Below are positions 27,329-44,717 of a stretch of DNA of 64,000 nt, piece after piece. This stretch comes from Thermosulfurimonas sp. F29 (GTDB taxonomy: Bacteria > Desulfobacterota > Thermodesulfobacteria > Thermodesulfobacteriales > Thermodesulfobacteriaceae), in NCBI RefSeq assembly GCF_019688735.1, contig NZ_JAIFYA010000002.1, positions 186,001 to 250,000 on the forward strand. The letters run 5' to 3'. The notes beneath the pieces are model-generated. The model had not been told where the DNA came from and made no database searches. It was given only the letters and a program-made list of their open reading frames with translations. Numbering within the stretch: the stretch's first letter is position 1; every line of letters begins with the position of its first letter. Both the position numbers and the translations under genes were made by a program.

Positions 27329-27760
27329 GTGCCGGAACGAAGCCGGGACTGGTTGCGCCAGGCGGAAAGAGACCTCGAAAACGCCCGATGGGAGATAAAG
27401 GGAGGATTTTACGAATGGGGATGTTTTGCCGCTCATCAGGCCGCGGAAAAAGCTCTCAAAGCGGTGTATCAGAAACTGGGAGGGGCAGCGTGGGGACATT
27501 CCTTGTTGCATTTATTGAGGGGCTTAGAGGAAAGGATTTCGATTCCGGAGGACCTATTCGAATTGGCACGGAAATTGGATGTGTATTATATTCCTTCACG
27601 ATATCCCAACGGATGGGAGGAGGGGGCGCCGCGGGATTATTACACCGAGAAGGAGGCGCTTTATGCCGTCGGTGCTGCGGAGGAGATCCTACGGTTCTGT
27701 AAGGGTCTTCTGGCTGGATCGGGATCTGGCTCTGAAAAATCTCAGGGAAAGTGCTCTTAG
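27329..27760 (+). CDS. HEPN-domain protein (toxin of HEPN/MNT pair)
   Basis: 143 residues. The helical HEPN signature is clear: RDWLRQAERDLENARWEI, FAAHQAAEKALKAVYQ, GHSLLHLLRGLEE and the Tyr/Arg-rich YYIPSRYPNGW. HEPN proteins are often ribonucleases or substrates of the partner nucleotidyltransferase. GTG start at 27329. The 3' end overlaps the start of the MNT gene by 98 bp, a strongly coupled pair. Confidence 0.82.
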   Translation: MPERSRDWLRQAERDLENARWEIKGGFYEWGCFAAHQAAEKALKAVYQKLGGAAWGHSLLHLLRGLEERISIPEDLFELARKLDVYYIPSRYPNGWEEGAPRDYYTEKEALYAVGAAEEILRFCKGLLAGSGSGSEKSQGKCS

Positions 27761-28049
27761 GCTGGTGAGAGAAAAACCTGAGGTGGAAGAGGTGAGGCTT
27801 TTCGGTTCCCTGGCTGAGGGACGGGCCGTTCCCGGAAGTGATGCCGATATCCTTCTCGTTTTAGGGAAGGAAGAGGGGTCCTTTTGGGAAAGGCCTTTAA
27901 AGTATCTGAACTATTTTGAAGAGATCGGGCTTCCGGTGGAACTTTTCTGTTATACCCGGGAGGAGATACGGGAAAATTCCTTTGCCGCGGAGGCCTATCG
28001 TCGTAGTTTAAAACTTGCGGAAAAAAACACCGGAGGAGGTGAAGGATGA
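27663..28049 (+). CDS. MNT-type nucleotidyltransferase (antitoxin of HEPN/MNT pair)
   Basis: About 128 residues. The minimal nucleotidyltransferase motif GSLAEGRAVPGSDADILLV carries the two metal-binding Asp residues. I chose the ATG at 27663, which has AGGAGG 7 nt upstream; the open frame extends further back inside the HEPN gene. MNT proteins neutralise the HEPN partner, in studied cases by adding AMP. Its stop overlaps the fbp start (ATGA), so the pair is in one transcript with the gluconeogenic enzyme. Confidence 0.8.
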   Translation: MPSVLRRRSYGSVRVFWLDRDLALKNLRESALRLVREKPEVEEVRLFGSLAEGRAVPGSDADILLVLGKEEGSFWERPLKYLNYFEEIGLPVELFCYTREEIRENSFAAEAYRRSLKLAEKNTGGGEG

Positions 28050-29404: not shown

Positions 29405-29683
29405 TTGGAACTCCTCAGAAGAGAACGGAGGGTGGAAAAGGTCGTTCTTTTCGGATCTCTTGCGGAGGGAAGAGCCACGACCAGAAGCGACGCTGATCTT
29501 CTCATCATAACGGACGGCGACTTTCGGGACAGGTGGACGGAATGGATTTTGCACTTCACCCGGGCACCTTTACCGGTGGATGTTATCCCGGTAAAAAAGG
29601 AAAGGCTTGATCTGCCGCTGGCAAGAAGGGCTCTAACCAGGGGGATAGTCCTTGCGGAACGGGATGAGGTTGAAGCTCTATAA
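29405..29683 (+). CDS. MNT-type nucleotidyltransferase, orphaned partner of truncated HEPN gene
   Basis: 92 residues or slightly more, with VVLFGSLAEGRATTRSDADLLI (nucleotidyltransferase GS...DxD motif) and a compact C-terminus. Frame analysis shows DEIIRNLRNLALELL just upstream in the same frame, so the original N-terminus began near 29375 but its start codon seems lost with the deletion. The TTG at 29405 is the best remaining start. Its 3' end overlaps cysS by 20 bp. Expression is uncertain. Confidence 0.6.
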   Translation: MELLRRERRVEKVVLFGSLAEGRATTRSDADLLIITDGDFRDRWTEWILHFTRAPLPVDVIPVKKERLDLPLARRALTRGIVLAERDEVEAL

Positions 29684-31127
29684 CACGCTGACCCGGCGGA
29701 AGGAGGTCTTTGAACCTCTGAGGCCTCCGCGGGTCACCATGTATGTGTGCGGCATCACCGCTTACGACGAGGCCCATCTGGGACACGCCCGGGCCGCGGT
29801 GGTCTTCGATGTCCTTTACCGGTTTCTGCGGTATCTGGGCTACGAGGTCACCTATGTGCGCAATTACACCGACATCGACGACAAGATTATCAATCGCGCG
29901 CTCCGGGAGGGGCGTCCCTGGCGCGACATAGCCGAGCAGTACATCCGGGAGTATCAGGAGGAAATGGCCGCGCTGGGGGTGGCCCCCCCCACGCACGAAC
30001 CCCGGGCCACGGAGCACATTCCCGAGATGATTGATCTGGTGCGGAGGCTCCTTGAGCGGGGGGTGGCCTATGTGGCCGATGGAGAGGTGTACTTTGCGGT
30101 GGAAAGGTTCCCGGGCTACGGAAAGCTTTCCGGTCGGAGGCTTTCGGATCTTATTGCCGGAGCCCGGGTGGAGGTGTCCGACAAGAAACGAAATCCCCTG
30201 GACTTTGCCCTGTGGAAGGCGGCCAAACCCGGGGAACCCTTCTGGGAGAGTCCCTGGGGCCCGGGGCGTCCCGGCTGGCACCTGGAGTGCTCGGCCATGA
30301 GCCTCAAGTACTGCGGGGAGACCCTGGACATCCACGGCGGGGGGCTGGACCTCATCTTTCCCCATCACGAGAACGAGATCGCCCAGAGCGAGGCGGCCAC
30401 AGGAAAACCCTTCGTGCGGTTCTTCGTGCACAACGGCCTCATCACCGTAGGCGGTGAGAAGATGGCCAAGAGCCTGGGGAATTATGTCAGCGTGAAGGAC
30501 ATGCTCTCCCGGTATCATCCCGAGGTGATCAGGCTCTTCCTTCTGACCAAACATTATCGCAGCCCCCTGGATTACACCGAGGAGGGTATGCGCGAGGCGG
30601 AAAAGGCCCTTTACGGCCTTTACGGGAGTCTTTATTTCCTCAAACGGGTGAGGCCCGCACGGGAGGGGGAATTGCGCAAGGGGGGTAAACGCCTGGAAAA
30701 GGCCCTGAACGCTTTTCGGGAGGGGTTTCTGGCGGCTCTCTGCGACGATCTCAATACCGCCGAGGCCATCGGGGAACTCTTCAGGTTTCTCTCCGAGATC
30801 AACCGGTTTTTGCCGGCGGCCAGGGAGGCCACCTCCGTGGAGGCGGAATTGTCCGAAAGGGTGCTTTCCGCGATCCGGGAGCTTTCCGGAGGCATTCTGG
30901 GCCTGGGGGCCCGGGATCCCGAGGAGTTCATCGAAGGGGAGAGGGCGAGGAAGCTTTCCTCTCTCGGTATTTCCCGGGAGGAGGTGGAGGAGAAACTCGC
31001 CGCCCGCGAGGAGGCCCGCCGGAAGAAGGACTTTGACCGGGCCGACGCCCTGCGGGAGGAACTGGGCCGCCGGGGAATCGAGGTCCGGGACACGCCCTGG
31101 GGACCGTTCTGGATGGTGACGGCATGA
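29664..31127 (+). CDS. cysS: Cysteinyl-tRNA synthetase
   Basis: 487 residues, class I synthetase. The zinc Cys and HIGH-like motif are in [20 protein letters not shown], further zinc ligands in WHLECSAMS and [12 protein letters not shown], and KMSKS as KMAKSLGN. It charges tRNA-Cys, which may include the selC-like GCA tRNA encoded at 35481. I use the ATG at 29664. Directly followed by cvpA with an ATGA overlap. Sequence and length are ordinary, so nothing indicates a specialised second CysRS. Confidence 0.96.
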
Positions 31128-35391: not shown

Positions 35392-35441
35392 GATTACCCC
35401 CACCAGCCAATACCTCTTTTCAATTTTATTGATAAAATCAA

Positions 35442-35471
35442 TTACTGTAATAGATAAATTTGAGATATAAT
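35442..35471 (+). promoter_or_regulatory. Promoter of the selC-like tRNA
   Basis: A perfect TATAAT lies at 35466-35471, with a weak TTACTG (35442-35447) 18 bp upstream. Transcription should start around 35478-35480, at or just before the first tRNA base, in an AT-rich stretch (35410-35475) within a GC-rich genome. Confidence 0.65.
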
Positions 35472-35480
35472 TTCCGTGAG

Positions 35481-35575
35481 GGCCGGGAGAGGGGGCTGGT
35501 GCTCCCCTGGGGCTGCAAACCCCGTGGGCCCCCTTGAAAGGGGGGGGCTGGCCGGTTCGATTCCGGCCCCGGCCT
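35481..35575 (+). tRNA. selC-like tRNA with cysteine anticodon GCA and long variable arm
   Basis: 95 nt that fold as a selenocysteine-type tRNA. Acceptor: GGCCGGG with CCCGGCC. D-arm: 6-bp stem GGGGGC/GCUCCC with a 4-nt loop UGGU, as in bacterial tRNA-Sec. Anticodon arm: UGGGG/CCCCG with loop CUGCAAA, anticodon GCA. Variable region: 26 nt, stem CCCCCUU/GGGGGGG around GAAA. T-arm: GCCGG/CCGGC with loop UUCGAUU. The discriminator is U35575, a cysteine identity base. Alternatively G35480-U35575 pairs as an eighth acceptor pair, making G35576 the discriminator as in tRNA-Sec (8+5 helix). CCA is not encoded. Ordinary tRNA-Cys has neither a long variable arm nor a 6-bp D-stem. The anticodon reads UGC/UGU, not UGA. 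Confidence 0.85.
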
Positions 35576-35604
35576 GGAAACTCTTCGGTGATGGAGGCAT
35601 TACC

Positions 35605-36864
35605 ATGGATCGCGAAGAGTTATGGCAGATCCTGGGGCTGGATCTTGAAGCCCACCGGAGACTCCTTGAGGCTCTCGGCCCCCTTTACGAAGAAATCTAT
35701 CTCTCCCGGGAGAATCGGCCCCAGGGTATGGCGTATTTTGACTCCGTAGTAGTGGATATCCACGGAGCGCGGGTGGCGGAGCTCCTGCAAATTCGTGAAA
35801 GCGGCAACCCTGTGGTGGGGACCTTCTGTGTGTTCGTGCCGGAGGAAATCATCTGGGCCGCCGGAGGGGCGTGCGTGGGCCTCTGCGCCGGAGTGGAGGT
35901 GGCCCCCGAAAGGGTAGATAAGGTCCTACCCCGGAATCTGTGTCCCCTCATCAAGGCTTTCTTCGGCTTCAAGCTGGCCCGTCTCTGCCCCTACATGGAG
36001 GTCTGCCACTTTCTCGTGGGTGAAACCACCTGCGACGGCAAGAAAAAAGCCTACGAGATCTTTGACCGTTACAAGCCAATTTATGTCATGCAGGTTCCGC
36101 ACAAAAAAGACTTCGCCAGCTTGGAACTCTGGATCAAAGGAGTCCGAGATTTTGCACTCTACATAGAAGGAGTTTCTGGAAAACCCATTTCTACCGAGGA
36201 TCTCCGGGAGGCCATCGAACTTATAAATCGAAGACGCGAGGCCCTTAATCGGCTAAACCGTTTACGTTGCCACGATCCACCGCCTATTTCAGGACGGGAC
36301 GCCCTTCTCATCAATCAACTGGCTTTCTTCGACGACCCCGAAAGATTCACCGTTCGCTTAAACGAACTCTGCGACGAACTGGAGGAGAGGGTCCGGGCCG
36401 GGGAGGGAGTGTGTCCATCGGGAACCACCAGAATAGTGCTCTCCGGATGTCCCATGGCTATTCCTAACTGGAAGGTACCTTACCTCGTGGAATCCACGGG
36501 AGCCGTGATCGTAGCGGAGGAATCCTGTGTAGGCACGCGCCACACTAGAGAACTGGTGCAGGTTTCGGAAAACTCGAAAGAAGGGCTCCTCAGGGCCCTT
36601 GCCGAAAGGTACTTTCGGATTGACTGCGCCATCTTTACCCCCAATCCGGAGCGTCGCGCAAACCTCGATCGGATGGTAAGGGAATTTTCCGCTCACGGTA
36701 TCATCCATTATGCTCTGAAGTTCTGTGATCCCTACACCATCGAGGCCTATCAGATAGAAGAGGGTGCGCCGGTTCCGGTCCTGAAGATCGAAACCGATTA
36801 CAGCCAGGAGGACCGGGAACAGCTTCGCACCCGCATCGAGGCCTTTCTGGAGATATTGAGGTGA
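35605..36864 (+). CDS. 2-hydroxyacyl-CoA dehydratase-like protein; candidate double-cubane cluster protein
   Basis: 419 residues of the HgdB/BcrB/FldB family. Likely cluster cysteines sit in conserved spots: GETTCDGKKKAYE, LSGCPMAIPNW and LKFCDPYTIEAY, with more Cys in AGGACVGLCAG and RLCPYMEVC. A single subunit gene of this type paired with one activator gene, instead of the alpha/beta pair of true dehydratases, is the pattern of double-cubane cluster proteins (DCCP), which carry an [8Fe-9S] cluster and reduce small molecules such as acetylene. ATG 35605 has GGAGG 7 nt upstream; the frame is open back through the tRNA but that part is not protein. The 29 bp between tRNA and start suggest one transcript. 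Function is inferred; a true 2-hydroxyacyl-CoA dehydratase is the alternative. Confidence 0.75.
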   Translation: MDREELWQILGLDLEAHRRLLEALGPLYEEIYLSRENRPQGMAYFDSVVVDIHGARVAELLQIRESGNPVVGTFCVFVPEEIIWAAGGACVGLCAGVEVAPERVDKVLPRNLCPLIKAFFGFKLARLCPYMEVCHFLVGETTCDGKKKAYEIFDRYKPIYVMQVPHKKDFASLELWIKGVRDFALYIEGVSGKPISTEDLREAIELINRRREALNRLNRLRCHDPPPISGRDALLINQLAFFDDPERFTVRLNELCDELEERVRAGEGVCPSGTTRIVLSGCPMAIPNWKVPYLVESTGAVIVAEESCVGTRHTRELVQVSENSKEGLLRALAERYFRIDCAIFTPNPERRANLDRMVREFSAHGIIHYALKFCDPYTIEAYQIEEGAPVPVLKIETDYSQEDREQLRTRIEAFLEILR

Positions 36865-37607
36865 GGGTGGCGGGTCTGGACATAGGTTCGCGAACCGTAA
36901 AACTGGTCATAGTAGATGAGTACGGAGTTATTGAGCGACGGTGTGTTGAAACCTCGGCCCGCCTGGGGGAACAACTTCATGCCCTCCTCTCCGGTCTCTC
37001 CTTCGACCGGCTGATCGCCACCGGTTACGGCCGTAATCTGGCCGGTAAACTCTTCGGGGCCGAAACCCTTACCGAAATCAGGGCCCACGCTATGGGCGTG
37101 AGAAGCCTTTTCCCCGAGGTGAGAACCGTTCTCGACATCGGAGGACAGGATAGTAAAGCTATACTTCTGGATCCCGAGGGGCGGATAGTAAAATTCGAGA
37201 TGAATGACCGCTGTGCTGCCGGGACGGGGCGTTTCCTGGAGGTCATGGCCTTAACTCTGGGCGTAAGACTTGAAGAGCTGGCCGAACTGGCCCTTAAAGC
37301 GGATCAGGCGGCAAGTATCAGTGCCCTGTGTACGGTCTTTGCCGAAAGCGAGGTGGTGGGCCTCATCGGACGGGGGGAGAAGCCGGAGCGAATCGCCCGC
37401 GGGATCATTTGCTCCATTGTTAAGCGTTCCCTGAGCCTTCTCAATCGTGTATCTTCGGTCCCCCCTCTGGTTTTCACCGGTGGAGTGGCCCGTAACCGGG
37501 CCATGTTGAAAATTCTAGAGGAGAAATTGGGGTTTCCGATCCTGGTTCCCGAAGACCCGCAGATCACGGGTGCCCTGGGAGCGGCCCTTTACGGAATGAA
37601 AGGTTAA
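36861..37607 (+). CDS. ATP-dependent activator/reductase of the adjacent dehydratase-like protein (HgdC/DCCPR-like)
   Basis: 248 residues of the ASKHA (acetate/sugar kinase, Hsp70, actin) fold. The phosphate motifs are GLDIGSRTVKLVIVD and DIGGQDSKAI, and the adenosine motif is FTGGVARNRAM. Two cysteines that bridge a [4Fe-4S] cluster across the homodimer are in NDRCAAGTGRF and SALCTVFAESEV. The protein uses ATP to push low-potential electrons into its partner. The start GTG overlaps the partner gene stop (GTGA). Confidence 0.9.
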   Translation: MRVAGLDIGSRTVKLVIVDEYGVIERRCVETSARLGEQLHALLSGLSFDRLIATGYGRNLAGKLFGAETLTEIRAHAMGVRSLFPEVRTVLDIGGQDSKAILLDPEGRIVKFEMNDRCAAGTGRFLEVMALTLGVRLEELAELALKADQAASISALCTVFAESEVVGLIGRGEKPERIARGIICSIVKRSLSLLNRVSSVPPLVFTGGVARNRAMLKILEEKLGFPILVPEDPQITGALGAALYGMKG

Positions 37608-37652: not shown

Positions 37653-38462
37653 TTAAAAGGAAAAACTCAACCTTACCCCTCCGAAGAAGTGGTCGTGGTG
37701 ATTGTCCCAGGAGCCGTCCTCGATCAGGGTGTCGGCGTCGTCGGAAAGGGAAAAGCTGTAGTAAACCTCGGGAGTCACGGTTAGGTACCGGCCCACCGGG
37801 ATGTTGATCTCGGCCCCGAGTTGCATGTAGAGCCAGCCGGAAAAGGCATCGTCGGGATCGTCGGGATCGGGATAGGCCCCCTCGTCGTCGGAGTCGAGAT
37901 ACATGGCCGAGGCCGAAAGACCGAGGGTGGCCCCGTGCCAGGGAAGCTCAAAGTCCCGCCCGGCCGAAAGTTCCACCCATGTACCGGGGTAGTGGGAGAT
38001 CTCCCGATACACCGTGAGTCCGAAGTTGATCCCGGTCTTCGGACAGGTGGCCGAAAGACCCAGGTAAAGCTCGAAGGAATCGTCCCCCTCCAGGGCGTAA
38101 TAGATGGATCCGGCGTCCAGAGTGAGCCCGTAAGGAAGTCCATCGTAGGTATATCCCAGGGTGAAGTCCGTCTCGTTCCAGTCCGCTCCGTCGAGGCTCT
38201 TGTCGTGTTCGTTGTTGCGATCGGTGTCGTAATTTCCCCAGAAATTCACATAGGCCCCCCGGTAGGACACGGTCACGGAGGGTTGAATCACCACCGAGTC
38301 GTCGGAGAGCGCAAAGCCCCGCCAGACATACTGCGAGAGCACATCCACGGACAGATCCGTGGACGGGCGGGGCTCCTCCGCCCGGATCCCCCGGGCCATA
38401 AATCCCACCAGCACCAGTACCACCAACCCTACCAGCACTCCTCTCAAACCCGTCCTTCTCAT
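37653..38462 (-). CDS. TorF-like outer-membrane beta-barrel protein
   Basis: 269 residues with a signal peptide (GVLVGLVVLVLVGFMARGIRA) and alternating beta strands. The first part, DLSVDVLSQYVWRGFALSDD, matches the putative porin family TIGR02001/TorF, and the C-terminus ends in Phe (VRLSFSF) as expected for barrel insertion. ATG 38462 is preceded by AGGAGGGAG; an upstream extension lacks similarity. It follows amt and glnK on the same strand, so it may be a nitrogen-related porin, but the substrate is unknown. Confidence 0.72.
   Translation of the reverse strand: MRRTGLRGVLVGLVVLVLVGFMARGIRAEEPRPSTDLSVDVLSQYVWRGFALSDDSVVIQPSVTVSYRGAYVNFWGNYDTDRNNEHDKSLDGADWNETDFTLGYTYDGLPYGLTLDAGSIYYALEGDDSFELYLGLSATCPKTGINFGLTVYREISHYPGTWVELSAGRDFELPWHGATLGLSASAMYLDSDDEGAYPDPDDPDDAFSGWLYMQLGAEINIPVGRYLTVTPEVYYSFSLSDDADTLIEDGSWDNHHDHFFGGVRLSFSF
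37663..37735. repeat. 73-bp direct repeat, copy B (inside outer-membrane protein gene)
   Basis: Identical to 35319-35391 at a distance of 2344 bp. The two copies bracket the selC-like tRNA, the dehydratase-like gene and its activator. Confidence 0.95.
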
Positions 38463-38522
38463 CTTCTCCCTCCTTTTAACATTTTTGTTTCTTTTGTTAA
38501 CTAACTTGTAACACAACCGTCC

Positions 38523-38861
38523 TTAAAGGGCCTCCTCACCCCTTTCGCCGGAGCGGATCCTTAGGGCCTCCAGCACCGGATAGACGAAGATTTTTCCGTC
38601 TCCGATCTCTCCGGTGCGGGCCGCCCCGGCTATAGCTTGCAATAATTGTTCCACTTCTTCATCTCTGCAGACGATCCGCAACTCCAGCTTGGGCAGAAGA
38701 TCCACCCTGAATTCCCGTCCCCGGAACTGTTCCACCAGTCCGGCCTGTCGGCCGTGCCCCTCCACCTGGTAGACCGTGACTCCGGGGTGTCCGATCCTTT
38801 CCAGGGCCTCCAGAACCTCCTGCAGTTTTTCCGGTCTGATAATGGCTCGTATTTCTCTCAT
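38523..38861 (-). CDS. glnK: PII signal protein GlnK, without the uridylylation tyrosine
   Basis: 112 residues. PII features are REIRAIIRPEKLQEVLEAL at the start and ARTGEIGDGKIFVYPV. The T-loop reads GLVEQFRGREFRVDLLPKL: the tyrosine that GlnD modifies in proteobacterial PII (Tyr51) is Phe here, as is Tyr46. Control is therefore probably by ATP/ADP/2-oxoglutarate binding only. It starts 3 bp after amt and should block the ammonium channel when nitrogen is plentiful. Confidence 0.93.
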   Translation of the reverse strand: MREIRAIIRPEKLQEVLEALERIGHPGVTVYQVEGHGRQAGLVEQFRGREFRVDLLPKLELRIVCRDEEVEQLLQAIAGAARTGEIGDGKIFVYPVLEALRIRSGERGEEAL

Positions 38862-38864
38862 GTT

Positions 38865-40244
38865 TTACCTCCTTACGGTGTAGAATTCGGGATAGGCTGG
38901 GGTACCGTGCTCGAAGAGATCGAGTCCCTGGATCTCTTCCCGCGGCGAGACCCGGATTCCGATAATGACATCGAGCAATTTGAAAAGGACGAGCCCCATA
39001 CCGAAGGCCCAGGCGAATAGGGCCACCGCGCCTATCAGCTGGGCGATGAGCTGTCCGGCACCGCCGCCGTAGAGAAGCCCCTTCACAAAGGGTGGTTCGA
39101 TGGCATAGTTTCCGTAGGTACCGTCGGCGAAAAGCCCCACGGCGATGAGTCCCCAGAGGCCGTTGAAGCCGTGCACCGGAACGGCTCCCACCGGGTCGTC
39201 CACCTTTATGGCCTCAAGAAAATAGACTCCGGCTACCAGAATGACTCCCGCTACGATACCGATCACCACCGCGGCCCAGGCCTCAACCCAGGCGCACGGA
39301 GCGGTAATGGCCACCAGACCCGCAAGCACCCCGTTTAAGGCCATACCCAGGTCAAATTTCCTGGTCTTGGCCAGGATTAGGAGCAGGGCCGTGAGAGAGG
39401 CCGCGGAGGCGGCCAGGGTGGTATTCACCGCTATCACCGAGATGCGCAGGTGGTGTGCGGAAAAGGTGGATCCGGGATTGAAGCCGTACCAGCCGAACCA
39501 GAGGATGAAGACTCCCAGTGCGGCAAGCGGAATGTTGTGCCCGGGGATGGCCCGGGGTTTGCCGTTTTTGTCAAACTTTCCGAAACGCGGTCCGAGTACT
39601 ATGGCCCCGGCAAGTCCCACCAGGCCTCCCACCGCGTGTACCACTCCCGAGCCCGCAAAGTCCAGGTGTCCGAGACCGAAGGGGAGCTTCGAAAGCCAGC
39701 CCCCGCCCCAGACCCAGTGGGCGTAAACCGGATAGATGAAAGCGGTTATGGCCACGGAATAGAGAAGATAGGCCTGAAATTTGATGCGTTCGGCCACCGC
39801 TCCGGAGACGATGGTGGCCGCGGTGGCGGCGAAGACCATCTGCCAGAAAAAGGAGAGATAATTTCCCACATCGTAACCCTTGCCGGCCAGGAAAAAACCC
39901 GTGGTCCCGATAAGCCCCCTCCAGTCGGCTCCGGTGATGAGGGCGTAACCCACGGCCCAGAAGGCCAGGGACCCCACCACAAAATCCATGAGATTCTTGG
40001 TGAGGAGGTTGGTGGCATTTTTGGCCCGGCAGAAGCCGGCCTCCACCAGGGCAAAACCCGCCTGCATGAACATCACCAGAAAGCCGCACACCAGCACCCA
40101 CACATAGTCCACCGCCAGGCCGGGATTGGCCTTGAGGGTCGTGGCCCCCGTGGGATCCCCGGCCATGGCTACCCCCGATCCTAGCAAAAACACCGCCGAT
40201 AAGATCGGCCCCACTCTTTTACCCGGAAAAAACCTGCCACTCAT
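38865..40244 (-). CDS. amt: Ammonium transporter
   Basis: 459 residues, with a cleavable signal peptide (ending GVAMAGDP) and eleven membrane helices. Typical Amt segments are GFALVEAGFCRAKNATNLL, FWQMVFAATAATIVSGAVAER, YPVYAHWVWGGGWL and DFAGSGVVHAVGG, with the twin pore His residues. Coupled to glnK downstream. A -24/-12 sequence lies 37 bp upstream, so it is probably under NifA/sigma-54 control. Confidence 0.96.
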   Translation of the reverse strand: MSGRFFPGKRVGPILSAVFLLGSGVAMAGDPTGATTLKANPGLAVDYVWVLVCGFLVMFMQAGFALVEAGFCRAKNATNLLTKNLMDFVVGSLAFWAVGYALITGADWRGLIGTTGFFLAGKGYDVGNYLSFFWQMVFAATAATIVSGAVAERIKFQAYLLYSVAITAFIYPVYAHWVWGGGWLSKLPFGLGHLDFAGSGVVHAVGGLVGLAGAIVLGPRFGKFDKNGKPRAIPGHNIPLAALGVFILWFGWYGFNPGSTFSAHHLRISVIAVNTTLAASAASLTALLLILAKTRKFDLGMALNGVLAGLVAITAPCAWVEAWAAVVIGIVAGVILVAGVYFLEAIKVDDPVGAVPVHGFNGLWGLIAVGLFADGTYGNYAIEPPFVKGLLYGGGAGQLIAQLIGAVALFAWAFGMGLVLFKLLDVIIGIRVSPREEIQGLDLFEHGTPAYPEFYTVRR

Positions 40245-40280
40245 ACCTTACCTCCTCCTTCAATTTTTACCAATCTTGAA

Positions 40281-40296
40281 TACAAAATTTGTGCCA
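40281..40296 (-). promoter_or_regulatory. Sigma-54 promoter of amt-glnK
   Basis: On the minus strand: TGGCAC, AAATT, TTGTA. The -24 half is perfect, and the -12 half has GT in place of GC. Transcription would start near 40270, 25 bp before the amt ATG, which has GGAGGAGG as ribosome site. The remainder of 40297-40492 is AT-rich without a gene. I found no clear NifA site (TGT-N10-ACA) in it. Confidence 0.65.
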
Positions 40297-40492
40297 AAAA
40301 TGAAAAGACTTGCAACAGTTAAATACCGGAATGATCCACAGAAAGCAATTCCATGATTTTTATGACATTATTGTTAATAACGAATCTGACAAATATAACA
40401 GAAGCGTAATTTAAGAGATCGGAAACTGACCCTCTGAGATGTTTTTTTGTGGGAGGTAAGGCTTTTGCGGAAGAGAGTTCTTGCGGTTCGGA

Positions 40493-41767
40493 TTACAAAG
40501 CTCTAAGGCGCCAGACCGGAGCCGAAAGAATGCGCACCAGATTATTCACGAAATTGATAAAGCCTTTATAACCGGTATAGGGGCCGCGTCTGCGCTCCTG
40601 AGGGAAGGAGAGGGTTGGAAAACCGAGTTTTACCGCTCGCCACTGCTCCCGGGCGTTGGTGATCACGAGGTCGGGCTTAAGCGCTAAAAGCGCCTTTTCA
40701 AACTCGTCGTCTCCGGGATCGTCGGTAAGAAAACCGGAAAAAGGGGCGGCCTCCCGGTGATCTTCAGGACTCCCGAAGACCGAAGCCGCCCCTGTGACCT
40801 CAAACCCAAGTTCTCTTAGCATCCTCCCAAGGGGCCCGAGTCTTCCGGCCCCGAGCACCACGAGCACCCTTTTCCCGGAGAAGAGTTTGAGCCAGGACCT
40901 GATCTCCCGAAAGGCCCGCGCCTCTTCTTCCCGGATGACCGCCTCCACCTTTGTTGAAGATAGGCCCAGGACCTCTCCCACCTTGCGGAGGGAAGCCCCC
41001 ACGGCCGAAAGCCCGTAAAAGGAGACCTTTAGGTAAGGAAGGCCGAAGCGCTCCTTTAAGCCCAGGGCAAACTCCCGGGCCGTTGAACCGCAGAAAAGGA
41101 GATTCAGATGAGCCCGGGAAAGACGCTCTATCTCCGGAAAACTGGTATCTCCGGTAAGGACCGTGTGGACCTTAATGCCGAGTTTCTCAAGAAGTCGCTT
41201 TATTTCCCGCGCCTCTCCGGCCACATTGTACTCTCCGATAAGATTTACCGTGGGGTGTTCGGCCCTGGGTGAGGATCGAACCAGGTTAAGCAGACTCCGG
41301 TAGGCCACGGCGTGGCCCCCGGCCTGGCTCTTTCCGGAAAACCCCGGGCAGTCCACCACGACGACCCTGCGACCTGAGTATCTCTCAACCTCGCGGGCAA
41401 GGCCCGTAAGATCCTCTCCGATAAGCCCCGTCGTGCAGGTGGCATACAGGAAGGCCCCGCGGGCGGAGGGGCGGAGGGAGAAGGCCTCAAGGATGGCCCT
41501 TCTCAATTTTTCAAGGCCTCCGAAGATCACCTCCCTGGCCGAAAGCGCGGTCCCGTAAAGATCTTTGGCCTCGCCCCGGACCATAGAGCCATAGTACCCG
41601 CAGCCCACGGGGCCATGCACCAGATGCACCGCCTCCCGGATCGGCCCGAGCACATATCGAGCCCCGAAATAAACGCAGCTTCGCTGGGTCATGCCCCCGG
41701 GCTCGCTTGCAAGCCCGCAGGGCTTAATCCGAAGAGGCACACAGCCGTAAGCGCCGCAGACATCCAT
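40493..41767 (-). CDS. nifE: Nitrogenase cofactor scaffold protein NifE-like
   Basis: 424 residues of the NifD/K/E/N family. Features include the Cys positions QRSCVYFGARYVLGP, LVHGPVGCGYYG and LYATCTTGLIGEDL, and VNLIGEYNVAGE. It lacks the FeMo-co-binding His context of NifD and fits NifE, which carries the FeMo-co precursor. The normal partner NifN is not encoded next to it, so the scaffold may be a homodimer, or NifN lies elsewhere. Starts 16 bp after nifK. Confidence 0.82.
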   Translation of the reverse strand: MDVCGAYGCVPLRIKPCGLASEPGGMTQRSCVYFGARYVLGPIREAVHLVHGPVGCGYYGSMVRGEAKDLYGTALSAREVIFGGLEKLRRAILEAFSLRPSARGAFLYATCTTGLIGEDLTGLAREVERYSGRRVVVVDCPGFSGKSQAGGHAVAYRSLLNLVRSSPRAEHPTVNLIGEYNVAGEAREIKRLLEKLGIKVHTVLTGDTSFPEIERLSRAHLNLLFCGSTAREFALGLKERFGLPYLKVSFYGLSAVGASLRKVGEVLGLSSTKVEAVIREEEARAFREIRSWLKLFSGKRVLVVLGAGRLGPLGRMLRELGFEVTGAASVFGSPEDHREAAPFSGFLTDDPGDDEFEKALLALKPDLVITNAREQWRAVKLGFPTLSFPQERRRGPYTGYKGFINFVNNLVRILSAPVWRLRAL

Positions 41768-41783
41768 TTTTTAACCTCAAACC

Positions 41784-43268
41784 TTACTGGTGGGTGCGGT
41801 CATCGGGATAGTGGTGGTCAAGGAGAGTATTCACGATAAGGGAGAGGAAATACTCTCCTCCCCGGTAACCCACTATCGCCCGCCGTTGATAGCCCACCCG
41901 ATCGTAAACCGGGAAACCGAACCGCACAAGCGGCACCCTTATCTCCCGCGAGATATTCACGCAGCGGGAGTGTCCGAGAATGAGATCCGGGGGATCGTGC
42001 TTTAAAGCGTATTCCCATTCAAACTGATCGCTTCCGTTCATGAGAATCGGTTTGTGGTTGTATTCCTCGCAGACGGAGAGAACCTCCCCCTCGGCCGAGG
42101 CACTCCTGGTGCCCACCAGAATGTAGGTGGGGATCATACCGAGTTCGCAGACGAAGCGTGTGGCTGCGGCCACGAAATCCGGATCTCCGGCCAGCGCTAC
42201 CCGTTTCATCATGGTATAGTGCAGGGTATCGGCCATAGCATCAAGGAGGATGCCCCTCTCCCAACGTACGGCTTCCGGAATGGGCCGTCCCGAGACCTCA
42301 CTTATGGCTTTAAGTAGTCGGTCGGTGTTGCCCACCCCCACGGGCATGGGAAGCACAAGGGCCGGTACCTTGTGGCGACGGGAAAGCCATTTCGCCCCGG
42401 CTCCTCCGGCATCAGGCGAAAGCGCGAAGATGGCCCTGGCGTCGCCTGCCCGAACGAATTCCTCCACCCGTGTGCCTCCCGGGGGATAATAGGGGATCCT
42501 CTCGGGCATGCCCACCAGCGGGCAGTCCAGGGTGTCACTTATGTCAAAGAGGATATGATAGGAGATCCCCATGAGCTCAAAGAGGTGTTTCAGCTCCCGC
42601 AGGTCTCCGGGCATGAGGAATCCGGGGATGAAGTACAGGTCTTCGGAAGGTTGACCGGTCTTGCGCGAGAGGGCCTTGAGGAACTCGCGTGCGGCCCGGT
42701 TGTAGCCCTCCACATGTGATCCGGCAAAGCTCGGGGTGTTCACCGTCACGAACTTCGTGAGGTCGAGTATTTCCGGTCCGAATTCTTCCTCCATAAGCTC
42801 CAGGGCCTCGGCGAGAAAGCTCTGGATGTCGTCTCCTATGACTTCGCTTGAACAGGTGGTGACGATGGCAATGAGTTCCGGCCTGTAGCGGCAGACGAGG
42901 TTCCGCACCCCGCGAATGAGGTTTTTACGGCCGCCGAAGACGGCCGCGTCCTCGTGAAAGGAGGCGCTGGCGATGGATGCCGGCTCCCGGAAGATACGGG
43001 CGAAGGTGTAGCGCACATAGGTGGTGCACCCCTGGGCTCCCTGCACGAAGGGAATGGCCCGGTGCACCCCCAGTGTGGCCCACATGGCCCCGAGGGGCAT
43101 GCAGGTGCGGCTGGGATCAATGCAGACCGAACGGTTGGTCGCCGGTACCAGCTCCGGCGGTGGGGGGATGTATTCCGGCGTAAGTGGCCTCTTTTCTATG
43201 TGAAGCTCTTTGTAGGTGATGCCCTCGACCGGAATCTCTGAAACCCGATTTATTTTCTGGTTGATCAT
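41784..43268 (-). CDS. nifK: Nitrogenase molybdenum-iron protein beta chain
   Basis: 494 residues. The three P-cluster cysteines of the beta chain are intact: RTCMPLGAMWATLG, QGAQGCTTYVRY and IVTTCSSEVIGDDI. EDAAVFGGRKNL and NTPSFAGSHVEGY are standard NifK segments. Style is that of the methanogen/Firmicute/Nif groups with NifI control. No vnfG/anfG-type delta subunit gene is present, so a molybdenum enzyme is most likely. It begins 18 bp after nifD. Confidence 0.93.
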   Translation of the reverse strand: MINQKINRVSEIPVEGITYKELHIEKRPLTPEYIPPPPELVPATNRSVCIDPSRTCMPLGAMWATLGVHRAIPFVQGAQGCTTYVRYTFARIFREPASIASASFHEDAAVFGGRKNLIRGVRNLVCRYRPELIAIVTTCSSEVIGDDIQSFLAEALELMEEEFGPEILDLTKFVTVNTPSFAGSHVEGYNRAAREFLKALSRKTGQPSEDLYFIPGFLMPGDLRELKHLFELMGISYHILFDISDTLDCPLVGMPERIPYYPPGGTRVEEFVRAGDARAIFALSPDAGGAGAKWLSRRHKVPALVLPMPVGVGNTDRLLKAISEVSGRPIPEAVRWERGILLDAMADTLHYTMMKRVALAGDPDFVAAATRFVCELGMIPTYILVGTRSASAEGEVLSVCEEYNHKPILMNGSDQFEWEYALKHDPPDLILGHSRCVNISREIRVPLVRFGFPVYDRVGYQRRAIVGYRGGEYFLSLIVNTLLDHHYPDDRTHQ

Positions 43269-43286
43269 GATCGGACCTCCTCTCCT

Positions 43287-44717
43287 TTAAATTTCGGTGC
43301 GGGAAAGCCGCCACACCGGGGCGCAAACGGCCTGGTAAATATCCCGGGCAAAGTTCACGAAGCCCCGAAAACCGGCGTAGGGCCCCTTTTCGTAAGAGTG
43401 GGAGTTAAGCGTTGGCACACCGAACTTGCGCACGAGATACTTCTCCTTGAGACCGGTGAGAAAAAGATCGGGCCTGCGGGTCTCTATCATTTCTTCGATC
43501 TCGAACTCGTTGGGATTGTCTATGACGAGAAGACCGGGTTTTGCGCGTTCGTTTATCTTGGCGTAGTCCTCCCTGTGGCCGAAGGTGGTCATGACCGCCA
43601 CCACCTCCATTCCCAGTTCCTCCATGACTTTGATCCAGTGCCACACCCGCGGGGCCCCCACATAGATGGCTACCCGCTTTCCGGAAAGCCTTTCCCGATA
43701 CCAAGAAAGGGCCGCCTCCACCGCCGCGGTTTCCTCTTCAATGATCTCTTCAGCCCGCCGTTTCATCTTTTCTTCCCCGAACCAGGCAGCCACATCCCAC
43801 AGGGCCTTAGCGGTCTGCGAAAGTCCAAAAAGACTCACCCGCACAAAGGGCACCTCAAAGCCCTGCTTGATGAGCTCGGCAATATAGGTGGCTGAACGCT
43901 GGCAGTGCACGATGTTGAGCCTGGCGTCCGGAAGGCGGAAGAGGTCTGAAAGCCTTGCGTTTCCGGTAAAGACATTGAGTATCCTCAGGCCCAGCTTCTC
44001 GAAGAGGGGGACCACCACGGCTTCGTCCCAGTCAATGTTGTATTCCCCGATCAGGTTCACATCGTAGGAGGTCCTCTCCTCCTCGGGGAGTACCACTTCC
44101 GGGTGTTTCTTTCGGTACTCTATGAGCCACTTGTAGAATTGGAAATTAAACTCGTGGTGTCCTTTAGACTGGGAGACTCCGCAGAAGCCCGGGGAGGCGC
44201 AGGCAAAGACGGGTTTTCCGACTTCGGCCGAGACCTCACGGGCCACCTGCTCTATATCGTCGCCGATAAGGGCGGTGGAGCAGGTGTTGTATATGACGGC
44301 CCCTCGGGCTCCGGGATTGAGCCGAAAGGCCTCAAGAAGGGCCCTTTTTAATTTTTCCGCTCCGCCGAAGATAATGTCCTGTTCGGTCATGGCCGTGGTG
44401 TAGCAGTGGCGGCGATGGTGGGCCTCGTTCTCTAACACCCCGGGGGCGGCCCAGCCGTAAAGATCCCCCAGATGCCGGCGCGTGCCCCAGGTGTAGTAGG
44501 CACAGCCCACCGGAGCATGTACCATCTGAATCACATCCACAATCGGTCCGCCCACGACCCCGCGGGCACCGGCAAAAGCTCACCCGCGCTCGGTGAGATC
44601 GCCCGGCACCGTGGGGGCGTTGCACCTGGGTAGCACCTTCTTATCTTCATCAACGAGGTAAATGTGTTCGGTCCTTTCGGGGATGCAGGCGTTACATTTC
44701 ATCGGATAGTAACCCAT
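43287..44717 (-). CDS. nifD: Nitrogenase molybdenum-iron protein alpha chain, with in-frame UGA at a P-cluster cysteine position
   Basis: 476 codons if UGA is read through. The ATG at 44717 (GGAGG upstream) opens MGYYPMKCNACIPERTEHIY, a normal NifD start. At codon 46 (44582-44580) the frame has TGA in TERG-x-AFAGARGVVGGP; NifD proteins have Cys here, alpha-Cys62 of Azotobacter, a P-cluster ligand. The frame then continues without damage: APVGC (second ligand), YNTCSTALIGDD (third), VHCQRSATY (FeMo-co Cys) and LNSHSYEKGPYAGF (FeMo-co His). A SECIS-like hairpin follows the UGA. The intact remainder and the conserved operon argue against a dead gene. Readings are selenocysteine, cysteine at UGA, recent nonsense mutation or a sequencing error (one base from TGC). 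Confidence 0.9.
44544..44571 (-). promoter_or_regulatory. SECIS-like hairpin downstream of the nifD UGA
   Basis: In the mRNA the hairpin starts 8 nt after the UGA. The lower stem is CGGU/ACCG, with a 2-nt GG bulge on the 3' side. The upper stem is GCCCGC/GUGGGC (one G-U pair), and the apical loop is GGGGUC, beginning 18 nt after the UGA. In Escherichia coli fdhF the loop (AGGUCU) begins 17 nt after the UGA, and a G and U in the loop are needed for SelB. Spacing, loop size and the GGUC core match. High GC makes chance hairpins possible. Confidence 0.6.

Follow-up and report, generated by a model that had tools for sequence, protein, structure and literature searches.

A selC-Shaped tRNA-Cys(GCA) of the 7/5 Type beside a Double-Cubane Reductase Operon in Thermosulfurimonas sp. 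F29: A Candidate Cysteine Fallback for Selenocysteine Codons

The 64,000-nucleotide stretch of the thermophile Thermosulfurimonas sp. F29 analysed here (contig NZ_JAIFYA010000002.1, positions 186,001 to 250,000; hereafter the window) contains a genuine tRNA gene at 35481-35575 (+) that combines a cysteine anticodon with the body of a selenocysteine (Sec) tRNA. Our best reading, to which we assign a probability of about 0.5, is a Cys tRNA of the selC*/ReC kind that substitutes cysteine for Sec at UGA codons under selenium shortage. We take selC* tRNA-Cys and what is also called tRNA-ReC to be the same kind. The fold of the tRNA, its identity elements, its co-occurrence with the Sec machinery and its conserved neighbourhood can all be observed directly. 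In several phyla they connect a Cys tRNA of the recoding type with genes that handle selenium, which supports, on independent genomic grounds, the view that bacteria hold cysteine as a fallback at Sec codons. Genomes and loci are cited below by working handles (G and L numbers) where they must be told apart.

Results

A Sec-type tRNA body. Positions 35481-35574 (+) are a full-length match to the Rfam tRNA-Sec family RF01852 (58.5 bits, E = 2.8e-9), so that the covariance-model scoring proposed by the first-pass annotation gave a value above the gathering score of 47. ARAGORN calls a tRNA-Cys (gca) at 35479-35576, the sole tRNA in the window. The single-strand fold is a cloverleaf with a 7-bp acceptor stem, a 6-bp D-stem, a 4-nt D-loop, a 9-bp variable stem and a 5-bp T-stem, in which all stem pairs are intact. 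Model match and fold together bear out the long D-stem, small D-loop and long variable arm described in the first-pass annotation. The parts are as follows.

35481-35575, +, selC-shaped tRNA-Cys(GCA), 95 nt, 7/5 type (RF01852, ARAGORN, fold, covariation)
35481-35487/35568-35574, +, acceptor stem, 7 bp
35488-35490, +, linker, 3 nt
35491-35496/35501-35506, +, D-stem, 6 bp, with the 4-nt D-loop at 35497-35500
35509-35512/35520-35523, +, anticodon stem, plus U35508.G35524
35515-35517, +, anticodon GCA in the loop CTGCAAA (sequence, ARAGORN)
35527-35535/35541-35549, +, variable stem, 9 bp (single-strand fold)
35551-35555/35563-35567, +, T-stem, 5 bp
35575, +, U73

The acceptor/T branch is thus 7/5 (12 bp), with A.C at the eighth acceptor position, and it lacks the G49.U65 pair that is present in the tRNA-Sec of the same genome. 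No CCA is encoded after U73, as is also the case for 13 of the 49 tRNAs of this genome. The fold energy (z-score -1.95) is weak if taken alone, and the strong evidence is comparative. To find homologues, we searched 198 related genomes at the DNA level, scanned 84,980 species genomes with a pattern and ran a covariance model over 395 genomes of the phylum. Homologues turned up in Thermodesulfobacteriaceae, in further families of the same phylum, and in Ammonifex, another Clostridia MAG, a Spirochaetes MAG, UASB270, Syntrophaceae and two Planctomycetota-type records. The same tRNA type is found at L105:3332-3435 and L114:451-553, in records labelled Planctomycetota/Gemmatales; the pattern matches L100, L116 and L130 (motif site) were discarded as chance. 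The tRNA is rare: at a strict cut-off the covariance model finds it in 9 of the 395 genomes, and the DNA search detected none in the incomplete assemblies of two members of the genus (G001, G003).

In an alignment of 15 homologues (7/5-like tRNAs) 96.9% of cells are paired and 14 pairs have changed on both sides. None of 500 shuffles performed as well, and slid controls reached at most 63% paired. Single mismatched pairs in G002 (4:69), G004 (2:71) and G008 (T-stem) suggest a weaker constraint in this family. Bulged 8-bp acceptor forms occur in G112, G144, Ammonifex and Clostridia. When the anticodon is masked, the 7/5-type tRNAs stay together in the tRNA tree, which does not separate grouping of the bulged 8/4-type with them from grouping with tRNA-Sec.

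Discriminator and amino acid. U73 is invariant in the 22 sequences compared, base -1 before G1 may be A, G, C or T, and CCA is encoded directly after U73 in eight relatives (G077, G112, G132, G144, two Ammonifex, Clostridia and UASB270). U73, and not a G, is therefore the discriminator. This result keeps the 3' end at 35575, where the first-pass annotation had placed it, and argues against its alternative, a G35480:U35575 pair that would make an 8-bp acceptor with a G discriminator. The anticodon GCA is likewise found in 22 of 22 sequences, which were selected partly by the GCA motif. With the ARAGORN call, this comparison upholds the earlier recognition of GCA and U73 as cysteine identity elements. 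Both ordinary tRNA-Cys of the F29 genome end in U73-CCA; the tRNA-Sec of the genomes compared has G73, and that of F29 ends in G73-CCA. Given a U73 discriminator and GCA, charging by CysRS is to be expected, and CysRS identity should be regarded as a strong prediction from these two elements.

Sec machinery and CysRS. The F29 genome encodes one normal tRNA-Sec(UCA), one SelB, one SelA and two normal tRNA-Cys(GCA). A CysRS gene lies in the window, 4.4 kb upstream of the selC-shaped tRNA-Cys.

29652-31127, +, cysS, normal full-length CysRS (TIGR00435, 530 bits)

Its product, together with a 778-aa CysK-CysRS fusion (L010:565-2901; CysRS part at C3:186331-187716 of the F29 genome), is the likely charging enzyme. 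Of the Thermodesulfobacteriota genomes checked, nearly all carry a CysRS frame of this kind (700-850 aa) in addition to a normal CysRS, whether or not they have the odd tRNA. Since the fusion is general in the order, and both it and the normal CysRS are also found in relatives lacking the selC-shaped tRNA-Cys, we rejected the fusion as a dedicated CysRS*. A truncated CysRS* linked to the tRNA, as in the selC*-cysS* system of Desulfobacterales, is absent, and both CysRS of F29 are full-length. Two small nucleotidyltransferase-like ORFs with a GSLAEGRA..SDAD motif (27579-28049 and 29405-29683) lie near cysS.

Among whole genomes with the tRNA (tRNA-bearing genomes only), SelB is present in 14 of 14 and SelA in 13 of 14; a separate tRNA-Sec was found in 13 of 14, the exception being G002, an 86%-complete assembly. 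The genome without a SelA match is G077, a single contig that has tRNA-Sec(UCA), SelB and a Cys-type Sec-shaped tRNA (8/5). At the G077 loci (L146, L166, L153) YedE is split into two frames.

A conserved selenium-related neighbourhood. Directly downstream of the tRNA lie the following features.

35593-35597, +, putative GGAGG ribosome-binding site of the downstream gene (sequence; between tRNA and ATG)
35605-36864, +, double-cubane-cluster anaerobic reductase, HGD-D/YjiM family, 419 aa (NF040772)
36861-37607, +, acyl-CoA dehydratase activase, partner ATPase of the reductase (TIGR00241, 233.7 bits, cut-off 125.4)

The reductase scores 453 bits against the NCBIfam equivalog NF040772 (cut-off 350), is the only copy in the genome and starts 29 nt after U73. 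By a rough estimate, a tRNA in a 2-Mb genome would fall by chance within 100 nt of one given gene pair, and on its strand, with a probability of ~5e-5. A selenium, reductase/activase or selB neighbour stands within ~1.6 kb of the tRNA in 12 of the 14 whole genomes. Reductase/activase genes are near it in G000, G002, G004, G005, G036, G097 and G132, so that dehydratase-like genes beside the same tRNA, suggested earlier as something to look for in other genomes, do recur. In G036 and G097, which belong to other families, the tRNA sits just behind the pair and not ahead of it, and the order in G132 is activase, tRNA, YedE, DUF3343. Recurrence in other families, with the tRNA on the opposite side of the gene pair, shows that the linkage is not a local accident. 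No in-frame stop that could be a recoding target was found in any reductase match. To our knowledge, the reductase/activase pair has no known natural substrate; the linkage nominates it as part of selenium metabolism.

YedE, a putative selenium transporter, and/or DUF3343 lie near the tRNA in G060, G077, G132 and G216. YedE is 14-133 nt from it in Clostridia, Ammonifex, G060 and G132, the shortest spacings (14-17 nt) being those of an Ammonifex and a Clostridia MAG. The order is YedE-DUF3343-kinase-tRNA in G216 and Syntrophaceae (with YedF downstream in the latter), tRNA-DUF3343-kinase-split YedE in G077, and YedE-SclA-like Sec lyase-tRNA-YedF-SelD in UASB270. A second selB adjoins the bulged 8-bp form in G112 and G144. 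G008 and G033 have no selenium or reductase gene beside the tRNA (~1.6 kb). At L134:3797-7424 a Sec-shaped tRNA-Cys stands between a gene for a large subunit of the NiFeSe-hydrogenase family and a second selB, which places a possible recoding target next to it.

Promoter and upstream block. Two elements precede the tRNA.

35429-35459, +, conserved AT-rich dyad block TTGATAAAATCAATTACTGTAATAGATAAAT, candidate operator (alignment of five loci)
35466-35471, +, TATAAT -10 hexamer (sequence)

The first-pass annotation had credited the tRNA with its own TATAAT promoter. The hexamer is present and is kept in three of four close relatives (G002, G005, G008), but scanning the + strand for consensus sigma-70 promoters turned up none that has a -35 box. 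The 31-nt dyad block contains the palindrome ATTACTGTAAT and aligns in F29, G002, G004, G005 and G008. These five sites score 44-50 bits; the next best match in ~1.04 Mb scanned scores 29, lies inside a nitrilase-like ORF and was rejected as a further site. The SelA, SelB and tRNA-Sec regions gave no match to the motif. In the window there is one exact match to the dyad pattern and one overlapping match with two mismatches on the other strand. Such a palindromic AT-rich block is unusual upstream of a tRNA gene, and we regard it as a candidate operator. In G008 (Thermosulfurimonas dismutans S95) both tRNA and block are retained in the absence of the reductase, with Gcw_chp-PII-Amt next door as in the window, so that the tRNA and its promoter form a stable unit there. 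In the window, the genes for the Gcw_chp protein, PII and Amt occupy 37656-44555 together with the nitrogenase-like genes that follow them on the minus strand; this gene order is common to T. dismutans S95 (L126), which is without the reductase/activase pair.

Discussion

The published Desulfotomaculum nigrificans case and the selenium-gene setting make a cysteine fallback for Sec codons the best reading of this locus. The tRNA would have descended from, or been remodelled on, tRNA-Sec, and would accept cysteine from CysRS by way of U73 and the GCA anticodon. Its Sec-type body, with the 6-bp D-stem and the long variable arm, would keep it linked to the machinery that decodes Sec and let cysteine enter at Sec UGA codons during selenium shortage, presumably with delivery by SelB. 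The gene would be transcribed from its own, probably regulated promoter, with selenium as the presumed signal, and is most likely cotranscribed with the double-cubane reductase and activase genes. The 12-bp 7/5 branch is the weak point of the SelB part of this model, because bacterial SelB recognises its tRNA mainly by an 8-bp acceptor stem (PMC7609411). Lacking this acceptor stem and the G49.U65 pair, the tRNA may be open to EF-Tu, and the 7/5 members offer a direct test of whether EF-Tu or SelB is used. We also count against the fallback model the single mismatched pairs in G002, G004 and G008, the two genomes without a selenium or reductase neighbour (G008, G033) and the one without detectable SelA (G077).

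The same 12-bp branch, with its eighth pair unformed and no pair of the G49.U65 type, would suit an additional elongator that is charged with cysteine, carried by EF-Tu and reads UGC/UGU, as the GCA anticodon would allow. We consider this reading rather unlikely, since the genome already has two normal tRNA-Cys for these codons, the neighbours are selenium genes, and neither EF-Tu nor CysRS would have any use for the conserved features of the body (6-bp D-stem, 4-nt D-loop, long variable arm); moreover, the relative in D. nigrificans reportedly shows no interaction with EF-Tu (PMC11415595). We consider it quite unlikely that the gene has decayed to a relic or pseudo-tRNA, or that it is a tRNA-like leader whose sole role lies in how the reductase mRNA is processed. 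The mismatches in G002, G004 and G008, the missing CCA and the position 29 nt ahead of the reductase start codon would fit such a role. However, the F29 copy is fully paired, covariation is strong across phyla, and 13 of 49 tRNAs of the genome also lack an encoded CCA; in addition, G008, where the reductase was lost or never present, still has the tRNA and upstream block in the shared gene order, and in G036, G097 and G132 the tRNA is found at the opposite end of the operon.

The first-pass annotation had also considered serylation by SerRS, conversion by SelA and insertion of Sec at UGC/UGU. The D-arm would suit SelA, the long variable arm would suit SerRS, and a tRNA-Sec with a GCA anticodon is known in Aeromonas salmonicida (PMC11415595). 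Nevertheless, SerRS requires G73 (PMC7609411), as found in tRNA-Sec, whereas U73 is invariant here and UCCA is encoded in eight relatives; with a normal tRNA-Sec(UCA) already in the genome, this proposal is scarcely credible. Finally, the 7/5 tRNAs could be a distinct branch that acts as a selenium-state-responsive partner of the double-cubane/YedE pathway and not mainly as a UGA recoder, with a dedicated regulator bound to the dyad and the tRNA serving in EF-Tu decoding or as a tRNA-bound cysteine donor. We regard this scenario as very unlikely.

Comparison with Known Systems

The tRNA from D. nigrificans was reportedly named tRNA-ReC by Vargas-Rodriguez et al. in 2018. Sec-shaped tRNA-Cys that coexist with a true tRNA-Sec have been described as selC* in anaerobes including Thermodesulfobacteria (Mukai et al. 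2017, via the review PMC7609411), and the D. nigrificans tRNA is reported to insert cysteine at Sec UGA codons, carried by SelB and not EF-Tu (PMC11415595). These reports confirm the earlier remark that selC-derived tRNAs with sense anticodons are known (PMC7609411, PMC11415595), and they overtake its description of an extra tRNA-Cys of unknown purpose, since both the type and its action at Sec UGA codons via SelB are published (PMC11415595). That action also differs from the other option it raised, Sec insertion at UGC/UGU.

The F29 tRNA shares with selC* the tRNA-Sec-like cloverleaf with a long variable arm, an anticodon from the GCA (or UCA) set, U73 and coexistence with canonical tRNA-Sec and SelB. 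It differs in its 7/5 branch, where the reviewed consensus is a modified 8/4 branch with a bulged A51a, and in having no linked selB* or cysS*; the second selB against the tRNA in G112 and G144 is as published for selB*. Because all tested features except the 8/4 branch are present, we file it as a 7/5 variant of selC* and not as a strict member. With D. nigrificans tRNA-ReC, for which alone function has been tested and UGA recoding published, it has in common a Cys tRNA (GCA) in a Sec-like body, although the Clostridia and Ammonifex relatives have 8-bp acceptors and F29 has 7. Like canonical tRNA-Sec (RF01852) it has a 6-bp D-stem, a 4-nt D-loop and a long variable arm, but it is not a member of that class, having GCA in place of UCA, U73 in place of G73 and a 12-bp in place of a 13-bp branch. 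Nor is it an ordinary tRNA-Cys, which would have a short variable loop and a 4-bp D-stem.

YedE, YedF and DUF3343 have been linked to selenium, with a dehydratase subunit and an activase as associates (Lin et al. 2015, PMC5322559). The selC-shaped tRNA-Cys family sits in clusters of this kind; the passages of that paper on the clusters already link reductase subunit and activase through STRING, and mention no tRNA as a member. Compared with selC* as presented in the reviews, three leads seem to be new: the linkage to selenium and double-cubane genes, the 7/5 branch, and the conserved block upstream of the tRNA.
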